Part shown: piece by piece, positions 3,257 through 16,852 of the stretch
Numbering within the stretch: the stretch's first letter is position 1
Layout: each line of letters starts with the position of its first letter
Origin: an uncultured Pelagibacteraceae bacterium
GTDB taxonomy: Bacteria; Pseudomonadota; Alphaproteobacteria; Pelagibacterales; Pelagibacteraceae
Reading direction: 5' to 3'
Assembly: GCA_902522325.1 (NCBI GenBank)
Contig: CABYVA010000008.1
Location: forward strand, 1-42,113
Length of the DNA: 42,113 bases
Position numbers and translations under genes: made by a program
The notes under the pieces: model-generated
What the model was told of the DNA's origin: nothing
What the model saw: only the letters and a program-made list of their open reading frames with translations
Database searches by the model: none

Positions 3257-3376
3257 ACGCCTGGTGATTATTGCGAAGGTGTAATACCCGATCCCATTCC
3301 GAACTCGGAAGTCAAGCCCTTCTGCGCCGATGGTACTTTGTCTTAAGACATGGAAGAGTAGGACATTGCCAGGCTA
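3257..3376 (+). rRNA. rrf: 5S ribosomal RNA
   Basis: The segment contains the very conserved 5S core CCCGATCCCATTCCGAACTC, followed by GCGCCGATGGTAC and GGAAGAGTAGG. The ends pair as the terminal helix: GCCTGG at 3259-3264 with CCAGGC at 3369-3374. The length of about 118-120 nt is normal. No 23S or 16S sequence precedes it. The upstream neighbour is a sugar epimerase, so this gene is separated from the rest of the rRNA operon. There is no hairpin terminator before rpmJ, which begins about 9 bp after the 5S end. The exact ends are placed to within a couple of bases. Confidence 0.96.
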
Positions 3377-8596: not shown

Positions 8597-8673
<77 letters not shown>

Positions 8674-8677
8674 GTAT

Positions 8678-8872
8678 TTAAATTCTGTTCCTTAATTTAT
8701 TTAATTTTTTTACTCTTTTTATATTTTCTTGAAGAATTCTTTTTTTCTTTTCAGAGGGTTTTTCATAGGTATTTTTTAATTTTATAATTTTAAAAAAACC
8801 ATCCCTTTGCAACTTTCTCTTTAACACTCTAAGAGCTTGTTCAACATTATTATCTTTTACTTCTATTTTAAT
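8678..8872 (-). CDS. rpsU: 30S ribosomal protein bS21, probably started at an ATT codon
   Basis: The protein is bS21, which binds near the 3' end of 16S rRNA and helps initiation. The core KDNNVEQALRVLKRKLQRDGFF and NTYEKPSEKKKR are diagnostic. The frame is open back to a TTG at 8884 (68 aa, MEVIIKIEVK), but that TTG touches a perfect Shine-Dalgarno GGAGGT (8882-8877). Four bases after GGAGGT comes ATT (8872-8870). Starting there gives a 64-residue protein beginning MKIEVKDNN, which puts six residues before DNN exactly as in other alphaproteobacterial bS21 proteins. I therefore choose ATT. No ATG, GTG or usable TTG lies between. The gene follows trcR by about 60 bp and precedes tRNA-fMet by 4 bp. 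Confidence 0.9.
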   Translation of the reverse strand: MKIEVKDNNVEQALRVLKRKLQRDGFFKIIKLKNTYEKPSEKKKRILQENIKRVKKLNKLRNRI

Positions 8873-8876
8873 AATT

Positions 8877-8882
8877 ACCTCC
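8877..8882 (-). promoter_or_regulatory. Perfect Shine-Dalgarno sequence of rpsU
   Basis: GGAGGT on the minus strand (8882-8877) is fully complementary to the usual 16S anti-Shine-Dalgarno end. It stands out because nearly all other genes in the window have no such sequence. bS21 itself sits next to the anti-Shine-Dalgarno region of the ribosome, so this site could feed back on bS21 synthesis. That is inference by analogy with rpsU autoregulation described in Flavobacterium. Confidence 0.6.
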
Positions 8883-8945
8883 AAAAAAAATTGTAATTAA
8901 CATTTTAAAATTTTGATGTCTATTAAATTTATTCATTTTTTTAAA

Positions 8946-9515
8946 TTATTTTGACAATTTTGCTTTTTCTTTTTCTTTTTTTTCTCTTTTAATTCTTCTT
9001 TCAGCTTTTTCAATTGCTGCAATTAAGTCTTTTTGTGAAAATAAACTCATAGCTACCGGGTCTTTCGAATTAAGATTATTATAATTCCAGTAGCTTTTGT
9101 TTCTTATCGAAGTAACCGAATTTCTTGTTATTCCAACTAATTTTGCAATCTGAGAATCTTTTAATTGGGGGTGATATTTAATCAACCATAAAGCCGAGTC
9201 AGGCTTGTCTTGTCTTTTAGATAGAGGTACATATTTTTTTATTTTTTTATTTGAACTAGAAATTTCAATATCGGTATTTTTAATTTTTAGTGGTCTGCTC
9301 TCATCTTTTGATGATAATTCAATTTCTTCCCTTGTTAATTGACCAGATATAATTGGATTGTATGCCATAATTCCTTTTGCAACTTCCCCATCGGCTATGC
9401 CTTGTACTTCAACTTCATGAAGGTTACAGAAATCTGCTATTTGTTTAAATGTTAAGGTTGTATTTTCTACCAACCAAACAGCAGTTGCTATTGGCATTAA
9501 AGGTGCATTCGACAT
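8946..9515 (-). CDS. trcR: TrcR / DUF1013 family cell-cycle transcriptional regulator
   Basis: This is a 189-residue protein of the alphaproteobacterial DUF1013 family, named cell cycle transcriptional regulator TrcR. The N-terminus PIATAVWLVENTTLTFKQIA with FCNLHEVEVQGIADGEVA is highly characteristic. A second helix-turn-helix-like block is DSQIAKLVGITRNSVTSIRN near residues 120-140. The C-terminus is a lysine/glutamate-rich helix. It is expected to be a cytoplasmic DNA- or polymerase-associated regulator; its targets in SAR11 are unknown. The ATG follows the stop codon of rpmE directly (TAAATG), indicating translational coupling. Confidence 0.9.
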   Translation of the reverse strand: MSNAPLMPIATAVWLVENTTLTFKQIADFCNLHEVEVQGIADGEVAKGIMAYNPIISGQLTREEIELSSKDESRPLKIKNTDIEISSSNKKIKKYVPLSKRQDKPDSALWLIKYHPQLKDSQIAKLVGITRNSVTSIRNKSYWNYNNLNSKDPVAMSLFSQKDLIAAIEKAERRIKREKKEKEKAKLSK

Positions 9516-9746
9516 TTATTTTTTCTTTTCTGATCTAAAATTTTGAAATTTTTTGTTAAATTTACTGACTCTACCTTTGTCAAGTAATTTTTGTTTACCA
9601 CCAGTCCATGCAGAGTGAGATTTTGGATCTATTTCTAATTTTAAAATATCTCCTTCTGCACCCCAAGTCGATTTTGTTTCAAACTGTGTACCATCAGTCA
9701 TTTCAACTTTTATAGGGTGGTACTTTGGATGTATGCCTTTTTTCAT
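9516..9746 (-). CDS. rpmE: 50S ribosomal protein bL31 (zinc-free type)
   Basis: The protein is bL31, 76 residues, beginning [20 protein letters not shown] and including [16 protein letters not shown] and [10 protein letters not shown]. The family is certain from these. There are no cysteines, so it is the C-minus form that does not bind zinc. It is located on the large subunit near the subunit bridge. It abuts trcR without a gap and lies 35 bp downstream of the inositol-monophosphatase-family gene. Confidence 0.95.
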
Positions 9747-14900: not shown

Positions 14901-16852
14901 ATTTTTTTATTTATCATTTCCATAGTTTTTTCTGCAATATTTTCTACTGTTAAACCAAAGTCTTTATAAATTTCTTTATACGGTGCACTTTTACCAAAAT
15001 TATTAATCCCAAAATTTAATCCTTTTTTAAAAATATATTTTTTCCAAGACTCAGTAGATCCTGCTTCAATAGATATTGTAAATTCTGTTTCATTTAAAAT
15101 TTTATCTTTATAATTTTTTGTTTGTATATTAAACAATTCTTGACACGGCACAGAAACAACTTTTGAATAGATGTTTTCTGTGGCTAATTTATGACTAACT
15201 TCTAAAGCCAAATTAACTTCAGAGCCACTTGCCATAATAGATAACAATACATTTGGGTTAGACCTAAAAATTTCATAAGCTCCTAAAGCACATTTGTTTT
15301 CTTTTTCAAATTCTTTTCTCACAGGCTCAACTTTTTGTCTGGTCAAAGCAATTATGCTAGGTGTTTTTTTATGTTTTAAAGCTAGTTGCCAGCACTCAAA
15401 TGTTTCGATTGTATCAGCAGGTCTAAAAACATTTAAATTTGGAATTACTCTTAAACCAGATAGTTGTTCGACAGGTTGATGAGTGGGTCCGTCCTCTCCT
15501 AATCCAATTGAGTCATGCGTCATAACATAAATTACTCTTTGATGCATTAATGCGGACAATCTAATTGATGGTTTACAATAATCACTAAAAATTAGAAAAG
15601 TTCCTCCATATGGTAGTAAGCCACTATGCAAAGATATACCATTCATTATTCCACACATCGCATGCTCTCTGACTCCGTAGTGAATGTAATTACCATCAAA
15701 ATTTCCTGGCTTAATCACTTTATGGTTTTTTGTTTTTGTATTATTCGAACCCGCAAGATCTGCAGATCCTCCAATTATATTAGGTAATTTTGAAATTATA
15801 TTTAAAAATTTTTCCGATGATTTCCTTGTAGCGATAGATTCAGACGATTTTAAATAATTTTTTTTTTCTTTTTCAATAATTTTATTATCAATTGTCCAAT
15901 CTATCCATCGATTTGTTTTTTTTTTATAGTTTTTAGTCCAATTTACATATTCTTTATCTGAACGTTTGCCAATATTTCTCCATTCGTTTAAAATTTTTTT
16001 TGGAATATCAAAAGGAGCATATGGCCATTTTAATTTTTTTCTAACTAAGTTTGTCTCATCTTTTCCTAAAGGACTTCCGTGAGCAGATGCAGATCTAGAC
16101 TTGTTTGGAGATCCATAACCAATAATTGTCTTACACGATATTACAGTTGGTTTTTTTGCTTTTTGAACTTTTTTTAGAGCTTTAAATATTTGTTTTTCGT
16201 TATGTCCGTCTATTAAAATATATTCCCAGCCATAACCTTCGAATCTTTTTTTAAAATTATCAGAAGTTGCGAGGTTTGTAGGGCCATCAATTGATATAGA
16301 ATTATTATCGAATAACATTATAAGATTTTTTAATTTTAAATGTCCAGCAAGGCTTAATGCTTCATGGCTTATCCCCTCCATTAAGCAACCATCTCCTGCA
16401 ATAACATAGGTTTTATGGTTTATAATTTTTTTACTAATTTTTTTTTTTAAAATTTCTTCTGATAAGGCAAAACCAACTGCATTTGCTATACCTTGTCCCA
16501 AAGGACCTGTTGTAGTTTCTATTCCAGTACTTGGGTAATATTCTGGATGTCCTGCACAAATAGAATTTAATTGTCTAAAATTTTTAATATCGTTTATAGA
16601 AATACTTTTATAGCCAGTTAAATATAGCAGAGAGTAAAGAAGCATTGAACCGTGACCAGCCGATAATACGAATCTATCACGATTAACCCAATCTGGGTCT
16701 TTTGGGTTAAATTTTAAAAAGTGTTTAAATAGGACAGTTGCCACATCAGCCATACCCATTGGCATACCAGGGTGGCCAGAATTAGCTTTTTCCACAGCAT
16801 CAATTGATAGAAATCTAATTGCATTAGATAAATCTTTATTTTGTAAGCTCAA
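14897..16852 (-). CDS. tkt: Transketolase
   Basis: Transketolase (651 aa, full length) moves two-carbon units between sugar phosphates using thiamine diphosphate. The N-terminal domain shows ANSGHPGMPMGMAD and the TPP/Mg motif GDGCLMEGISHEA. The central pyrimidine domain shows YGVREHAMCGIMNG, YGGTFLIFSDYCKP and HDSIGLGEDGPTHQP. The C-terminal domain ends with a normal GFG-like region (KDFGLTVENI). It is the first gene of the minus-strand operon that continues into gap, pgk and fba. The 54 bp between it and the divergent coiled-coil gene must hold both promoters. TPP for this enzyme would come from thiE and thiD products. Confidence 0.97.
   Translation of the reverse strand: MSLQNKDLSNAIRFLSIDAVEKANSGHPGMPMGMADVATVLFKHFLKFNPKDPDWVNRDRFVLSAGHGSMLLYSLLYLTGYKSISINDIKNFRQLNSICAGHPEYYPSTGIETTTGPLGQGIANAVGFALSEEILKKKISKKIINHKTYVIAGDGCLMEGISHEALSLAGHLKLKNLIMLFDNNSISIDGPTNLATSDNFKKRFEGYGWEYILIDGHNEKQIFKALKKVQKAKKPTVISCKTIIGYGSPNKSRSASAHGSPLGKDETNLVRKKLKWPYAPFDIPKKILNEWRNIGKRSDKEYVNWTKNYKKKTNRWIDWTIDNKIIEKEKKNYLKSSESIATRKSSEKFLNIISKLPNIIGGSADLAGSNNTKTKNHKVIKPGNFDGNYIHYGVREHAMCGIMNGISLHSGLLPYGGTFLIFSDYCKPSIRLSALMHQRVIYVMTHDSIGLGEDGPTHQPVEQLSGLRVIPNLNVFRPADTIETFECWQLALKHKKTPSIIALTRQKVEPVRKEFEKENKCALGAYEIFRSNPNVLLSIMASGSEVNLALEVSHKLATENIYSKVVSVPCQELFNIQTKNYKDKILNETEFTISIEAGSTESWKKYIFKKGLNFGINNFGKSAPYKEIYKDFGLTVENIAEKTMEMINKKI

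Follow-up and report, generated by a model that had tools for sequence, protein, structure and literature searches.

The DNA analysed here, referred to as the window, is a stretch of 42,113 nucleotides from an uncultured member of the Pelagibacteraceae (contig CABYVA010000008.1), and it forms part of an incomplete genome of 993,623 bases. Its minus strand carries rpsU, the gene for ribosomal protein bS21. The upstream neighbours of rpsU are trcR and, beyond trcR, rpmE, an inositol-phosphatase-family gene and efp. The features of the locus are as follows.

8597..8673, minus strand: initiator-type tRNA-Met (CAT) gene found by ARAGORN, 4 nt past the rpsU stop
8678..8872, minus strand: rpsU coding sequence (bS21), 64 codons from ATT to the stop TAA (TIGR00030, E=1.5e-14; PF01165, E=7.4e-16)
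8870..8872, minus strand: ATT start codon, placed by alignment with the bS21 methionine, by a comparison of 73 loci in the genus and by upstream stops in sister genera
8874..8882, minus strand: extended Shine-Dalgarno (SD) sequence GGAGGTAAT, complementary to the 16S tail ATTACCTCC, with a predicted pairing of -13.3 kcal/mol
8883..8890, minus strand: tract of eight T residues adjoining the SD on its upstream side, kept in the ATT class of the genus and mostly lost in the ATG class
8894..8902, minus strand: putative extended -10 element TGTTAATTA with invariant TGnTA, from column conservation in an alignment anchored on TAGACA
8917..8922, minus strand: putative -35 element TAGACA
8946..9515, minus strand: trcR (PF06242), the upstream neighbour
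9516-9746: rpmE (bL31), farther upstream of rpsU than trcR

An earlier note on this DNA had placed GGAGGT at 8882-8877 and, after four bases, ATT at 8872-8870 in the rpsU frame of the minus strand. These coordinates are borne out, and the frame is that of bS21 by its matches to TIGR00030 and PF01165. The note was also right that only one ordinary start, TTG 8884-8882, occurs in the open frame upstream of the ATT and touches the SD; it overlaps the first G of GGAGG. The spacing claimed for alphaproteobacterial bS21 holds as well, the ATT aligning with the initiator position, and the N-terminal peptide predicted from the AUU start is MKIEVKDNNVEQALR. By contrast, calling this the only perfect SD of the region was an overstatement, as GGAGGGGATAAGCCATG at 16379 (minus strand) is another strong SD candidate in the window. 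Judged from the window and its relatives together, an AUU start of SAR11 rpsU behind a strong SD is strongly supported.

The 3' end of 16S rRNA in the window's own genome is GGATTACCTCCTT. In the family, the 16S end reads GGATTACCTCC and not the usual GGATCACC (G000:C11:17499-17543 and relatives), and the extended SD GGAGGTAA matches the changed base. A 5S rRNA gene at 3260-3374 (plus strand) is the only rRNA gene of the 42 kb; in a complete relative, G012, the 5S gene at about 1002.7 kb is well apart from the 16S gene at about 1050.7 kb.

Upstream of rpsU, TNGACA with its 17-nt spacer is found in 73/73 genus loci; together with the conserved TGnTA it recurs in sister genera. The pair fits a sigma-70-type promoter with an extended -10 element, the last -10 base being A and not T. 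The leader predicted from it, about 15-20 nt, would consist of the T-tract, the SD and the start. No match to this leader was found in Rfam, and it is not among the rpsB, rpsL, ffh and SAM-V motifs of PMC2704228. Predicted folds of three rpsU initiation regions reach about -2 kcal/mol. A structured leader or riboswitch was rejected, given the absence of an Rfam match and a predicted leader that is too short. UTP-sensitive promoters of E. coli have a T-tract at the transcription start and undergo reiterative transcription; the T-tract of the window (8883-8890, minus strand) also sits at the predicted transcription start.

Downstream of rpsU, the tRNA-fMet gene follows after 4-13 nt in 73/73 genus loci. 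In the window it is probably co-transcribed with rpsU; of the tRNA-Met genes found in the complete genome G012, none but the rpsU-linked copy is of the initiator type. The anticodon stem of the window's tRNA (8597-8673, minus strand) is UCAGG/CCUGA, with A29-U41 instead of three G-C pairs, and the rpsU-linked initiator tRNAs read in the genus are all of the UCAGG/CCUGA or the CAAGG/CCTTG kind. A search of the literature for initiator tRNAs without three G-C pairs found no paper on point.

Conservation of the rpsU start site

How widely is this arrangement kept? A pattern search found the exact signature GGRGG-N3-TT-ATT at rpsU in 271 of 399 genomes of the Pelagibacter genus, many of those without it being incomplete assemblies, and in 49 of 57 near-complete ones; many of the genomes compared are single-cell or metagenome assemblies. 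GGRGG is present in 80/80 named loci, with the start being ATT in 78 and ATC in two. In the set of 73 genus loci the first codon is ATT (65), ACG (four) or ATG (four); GGRGG lies exactly 5 nt before it in 69/69 non-ATG loci and is absent from the four ATG loci. This conservation rules out a sequencing error behind the ATT.

The ATT start is also used by rpsU in sister genera of the same family. At six of seven such loci (L369-L373 and L375) the frame is interrupted by a stop 2-5 codons upstream of the ATT, and since the intervening codons include no ATG, GTG or TTG, a non-canonical start is forced. At the seventh (L374), the only standard in-frame start is an ATG 11 codons upstream.

The 139 distinct loci with ATT or ATC allow the coding boundary to be followed codon by codon. 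Downstream of the start, codons 2, 3, 5-9, 11 and 12 show synonymous changes only, codon 4 varies between E and D, and codon 10 between V and I. On the upstream side, the residue at codon -1 is V, F, I, L or A, all changes there being nonsynonymous, and that at codon -2 is V, D, E or G; a TAG occupies codon -4 in a single locus. ATT stands at codon 1 in 136/139, and the isoleucine codon 3 is ATA in 135/139, which indicates that codon 1 is held at the nucleotide level. The substitutes for ATT within the genus are ATC, ACG and ATG, that is, AUG itself or codons one step away from it, and never GTG or TTG, as if starts tolerated by initiation factor IF3 were avoided. The earlier note had proposed an alignment of upstream DNA as a check; in it, GGAGG and ATT are conserved and conservation at the protein level is lost before the ATT. 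An upstream ATG, GTG or TTG is not consistently kept among the relatives, the TTG being replaced in several of them and stops being present in the six sister-genus loci.

Weak starts of rpsU extend beyond the family. Another family of the order has a leader of the form TTAAGGAGGGCAGNACNATA-GTY. The open frame lacks ATG, GTG and TTG at 9 of 12 loci, and translation probably begins at the invariant ATA. When 43 other alphaproteobacterial families were sampled with one rpsU gene apiece, a hand count of the starts found ATG in 12, GTG in 18, TTG in seven and a non-canonical start in six (two ATC, two ATA, one CTG and one ATT), three of which lack any standard start in the open frame. The control gene rpsT of the same class begins with ATG in 29/29, and rpsU of the gammaproteobacterial type has mostly ATG. 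Viral bS21 genes (L282-L338 and L199-L201) have ATG or TTG starts, many behind an extended AAGGAGGTAA SD; that of Pelagibacter phage Mosig is AAAGGAGGTAAT, with a predicted pairing of -20.9 kcal/mol.

Relatives with an ATG start and the use of Shine-Dalgarno sequences

A natural experiment is provided by the 23 genomes in which the first rpsU codon does not end in T. Five with ACG and two with ATC all have GGAGG, and none of the 16 with ATG has it. The comparison within the genus shows no non-AUG rpsU start that lacks a strong SD. Predicted energies of pairing to the 16S tail lie between -9.3 and -13.1 kcal/mol for the ATT class, against +1.4 to -5.3 for the ATG class. Members of both classes and of the sister genera share one and the same 16S end, GGATTACCTCCTT, and an altered anti-SD was therefore rejected as the route of SD loss in the ATG class. 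On a trcR tree, which is short and partly unresolved and leaves the direction of change unfixed, the ATG/no-SD state needs at least two changes on supported branches and four on the best tree; a Fisher p-value calculated over genomes takes no account of shared ancestry. Since relatives bearing AUG lack the SD, the weak start looks selected, and it probably helps to control the amount of bS21. Some successful species, those of the 16 ATG genomes, manage without the device.

The earlier note had described the genome as mostly lacking SD sites, which agrees with the rarity of strong ones in G012: with mechanical ORFs as gene calls, 16 of 1328 ORFs have GGAGG a short way upstream of their first start. 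The predicted anti-SD pairing of rpsU in this genome is -11.9 kcal/mol, rank 14 of about 1354. Pairing below -8 kcal/mol is found at 7.0% of starts versus 1.6% of control windows; this enrichment before other starts suggests that the anti-SD is not generally silenced. When G012 was screened automatically for other genes combining a strong SD with a non-canonical start, three candidates that lack any standard start came up, none of them convincing; rpsU itself falls outside the filter because of its in-frame TTG. At about 340393 on the minus strand of G012 contig C1, a 48-codon ORF whose beginning resembles a signal peptide has an ATT preceded by AAGGAG, lacks a standard start nearby, and is possibly another non-AUG gene.

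Control of bS21 and competing explanations

In Pelagibacter and its sister genera, rpsU would be translated from a near-cognate AUU placed 5 nt after an extended SD on a very short leader. The strong SD would keep 30S subunits bound to the mRNA, and the imperfect pairing of AUU with the anticodon would slow initiation and expose it to start-codon proofreading by IF3. Output of rpsU would then depend on both SD pairing and the stringency of initiation. The bS21 protein joins late and lies beside the SD helix; 30S subunits short of it, or poorly policed by IF3, may initiate relatively better on rpsU and so refill the bS21 pool. We favour this combination of AUU and SD with stringency-limited initiation, most likely serving homeostatic control of bS21, as the better-founded reading. 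Its parts differ in strength: sensitivity of the start to IF3 is quite probable from the precedents of infC, sigR and the S. aureus genes discussed below, and feedback through bS21 or the state of the 30S subunit, the weaker of the two, is plausible at a little under even chances. The idea of the earlier note, a gene that senses bS21 or the anti-SD on ribosomes, is plausible too.

The gene for IF3 itself, infC, starts at GTG in Pelagibacter, and IF3 is thus not obviously autoregulated by its start codon in the genus; this counts against the favoured reading, as do the ATG genomes that lack the device and the fact that Tyr54 is not apparent in this bS21. This GTG (L118-L127) has no SD and directly follows an in-frame stop; in the next family and other alphaproteobacteria (L128-L130, L122 and L114-L117) infC seems to start at AUA or AUC behind GGAG. 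The Pelagibacterales IF3 proteins that were read (L118-L130) carry Lys where E. coli has Arg131 (RFKGRE for RFRGRE). Changes of Arg131 in IF3 accompany unusual initiator tRNAs in mycoplasmas.

Could the same sequences reflect a fixed rate of synthesis instead of control? A strong SD with a weak start, or a weak SD with AUG, might simply give the same moderate, unregulated rate, and expression of E. coli pcnB is reportedly limited by its AUU start. The exchange of non-AUG with SD for AUG without SD is what such compensation predicts, down to the lack of GGAGG in 16/16 ATG genomes. Taken alone, however, a set-point does not account for the choice of codons rejected by IF3 (ATT, ATC and ACG, with ATA in the next family) over GTG or TTG with a milder SD, nor for weak rpsU starts throughout a class in which rpsT always has ATG. 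A fixed set-point is the chief rival, a serious explanation though a less probable one than control.

Control of the Flavobacterium type alone, in which bS21 hides the anti-SD, ribosomes lacking bS21 translate rpsU, and the AUU just trims background, is improbable. It would suit the general rarity of SDs in a genome that gives rpsU a strong one, and the mechanism is known in F. johnsoniae (PMC9976891). Against it, a minority of other genes use SDs, as the excess of pairing below -8 kcal/mol indicates, and for this reason rpsU is not classed with that autoregulation; moreover, rpsU ranks 14th and not uniquely first, and Tyr54 of Bacteroidia bS21, which is linked to anti-SD sequestration, is not apparent on inspection of this bS21.

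The neighbouring tRNA suggests a further possibility, that demand for initiator tRNA sets transcription and the weak start merely throttles bS21 made from an over-abundant transcript. The invariable linkage within the genus, to the sole initiator-type gene found in G012, is in keeping with this. Sister genera, however, have ATT and the SD with no tRNA found in roughly 100-250 nt downstream, and non-AUG rpsU starts occur class-wide, making the idea decidedly improbable. Coupling to the tRNA-fMet gene as the cause of the AUU was likewise rejected, as the tRNA is not seen beyond the genus within short downstream stretches.

A short leader ORF, MNKFNRHQNFKMLITIFFGGNY, has a TAA stop that overlaps the ATT, but translational coupling to it or frameshifting out of it is very hard to credit: the ORF is open in the window and many relatives and TTATTAA is kept in the ATT class, but the conserved TAGACA and the start are 50 nt apart in some species and 51 nt in others, so that the frame is not maintained, the stop is lost in ACG variants, and the conserved blocks are spaced like a -35/-10 pair. 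A +1 frameshift at TAT TAA was rejected for want of support, since tRNA-Tyr would mispair on AUU. The ordinary start at TTG 8884 that a gene finder limited to ATG, GTG and TTG would pick was rejected as scarcely conceivable: although in frame in most genus relatives, it overlaps the SD, gives way to CTG, TGG, TAG, CCG or TCG in some of them and to stops at or after its position in sister genera, and is followed by codons that drift as far as the ATT.

Returning to control through start-codon stringency, a broader proposal can be made tentatively and with less confidence than the feedback on rpsU itself. In SAR11, and more loosely in many Alphaproteobacteria, the non-AUG start of rpsU may sense the state of 30S initiation (bS21 occupancy, IF3 and initiator tRNA) and so control bS21, and phage-borne bS21 genes may avoid this feedback by their AUG or UUG starts. 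Since marine phages carry bS21 genes, such control would also be relevant to the possible exchange of a ribosomal protein by phages.

Comparison with known systems

Start codons that are normally rejected are known in few bacterial genes, and here the gene for a ribosomal protein has retained one across a bacterial family that is the most abundant in the ocean. The open-access literature yielded no report of an AUU start in SAR11 rpsU, which does not disprove that one exists. Annotation limited to ATG, GTG and TTG must misplace the N-terminus of bS21 in SAR11. Relatives with AUG and a lost SD offer a ready test of the trade-off between SD strength and start-codon proofreading, and the same comparison bears on translational feedback by bS21 outside the Bacteroidota.

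The regulation of rpsU in E. coli is described as unknown in a 2024 review, the consulted part of which does not mention non-AUG rpsU starts (PMC10931766). The review also discusses the UUG start of E. coli rpsT, with reported effects on autoregulation, and describes that autoregulation as neither proved nor disproved (PMC10931766). The rpsT gene resembles SAR11 rpsU in having a weak start codon in a gene for a 30S protein; however, UUG is an accepted start, and in Alphaproteobacteria rpsT has ATG (29/29) and rpsU is the weak one. In F. johnsoniae, ribosomes lacking bS21 boost translation of rpsU with its strong SD, and bS21 joins late and can dissociate (PMC9976891). Gene, exceptionally strong SD and rarity of SDs in the genome are shared with SAR11, whereas SAR11 rpsU differs in its AUU start, its SD rank of 14 among about 1354 and the lack of indications of anti-SD sequestration.

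Parallels in the start site itself come from genes outside the ribosomal proteins. In S. aureus, cvfC1 (AUU) and ccpN (AUA) have conserved near-cognate starts with extended SDs, as SAR11 rpsU does, but they do not encode ribosomal proteins, and their initiation was mapped by Ribo-Ret (PMC13009471). Streptomyces sigR has a GTC start behind AGGAGGTG and is repressed by IF3 (PMC5472188). It shares with SAR11 rpsU a conserved non-canonical start behind an extensive ribosome-binding site, although it encodes a transcription factor in another phylum and the effect of IF3 is experimental for sigR and inferred for rpsU.

A further counterpart is infC, with AUU in E. coli and AUA in S. aureus: like SAR11 rpsU, it is a gene of the 30S initiation machinery with a strong SD and a start that IF3 discriminates against. 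Changing its AUU to AUG abolishes autocontrol by IF3 (Butler 1987, cited in PMC5472188). The difference is that the gene here is rpsU, and that in this genus infC no longer shows the feature and has GTG as its start, with apparent starts of the AUA/AUC type in the next family and other alphaproteobacteria examined. With its conserved start other than AUG, GUG or UUG and its strong SD, rpsU has the sequence features of the infC and sigR type; in its anatomy, the start site of SAR11 rpsU resembles that of infC, on a gene for which such a site is new.
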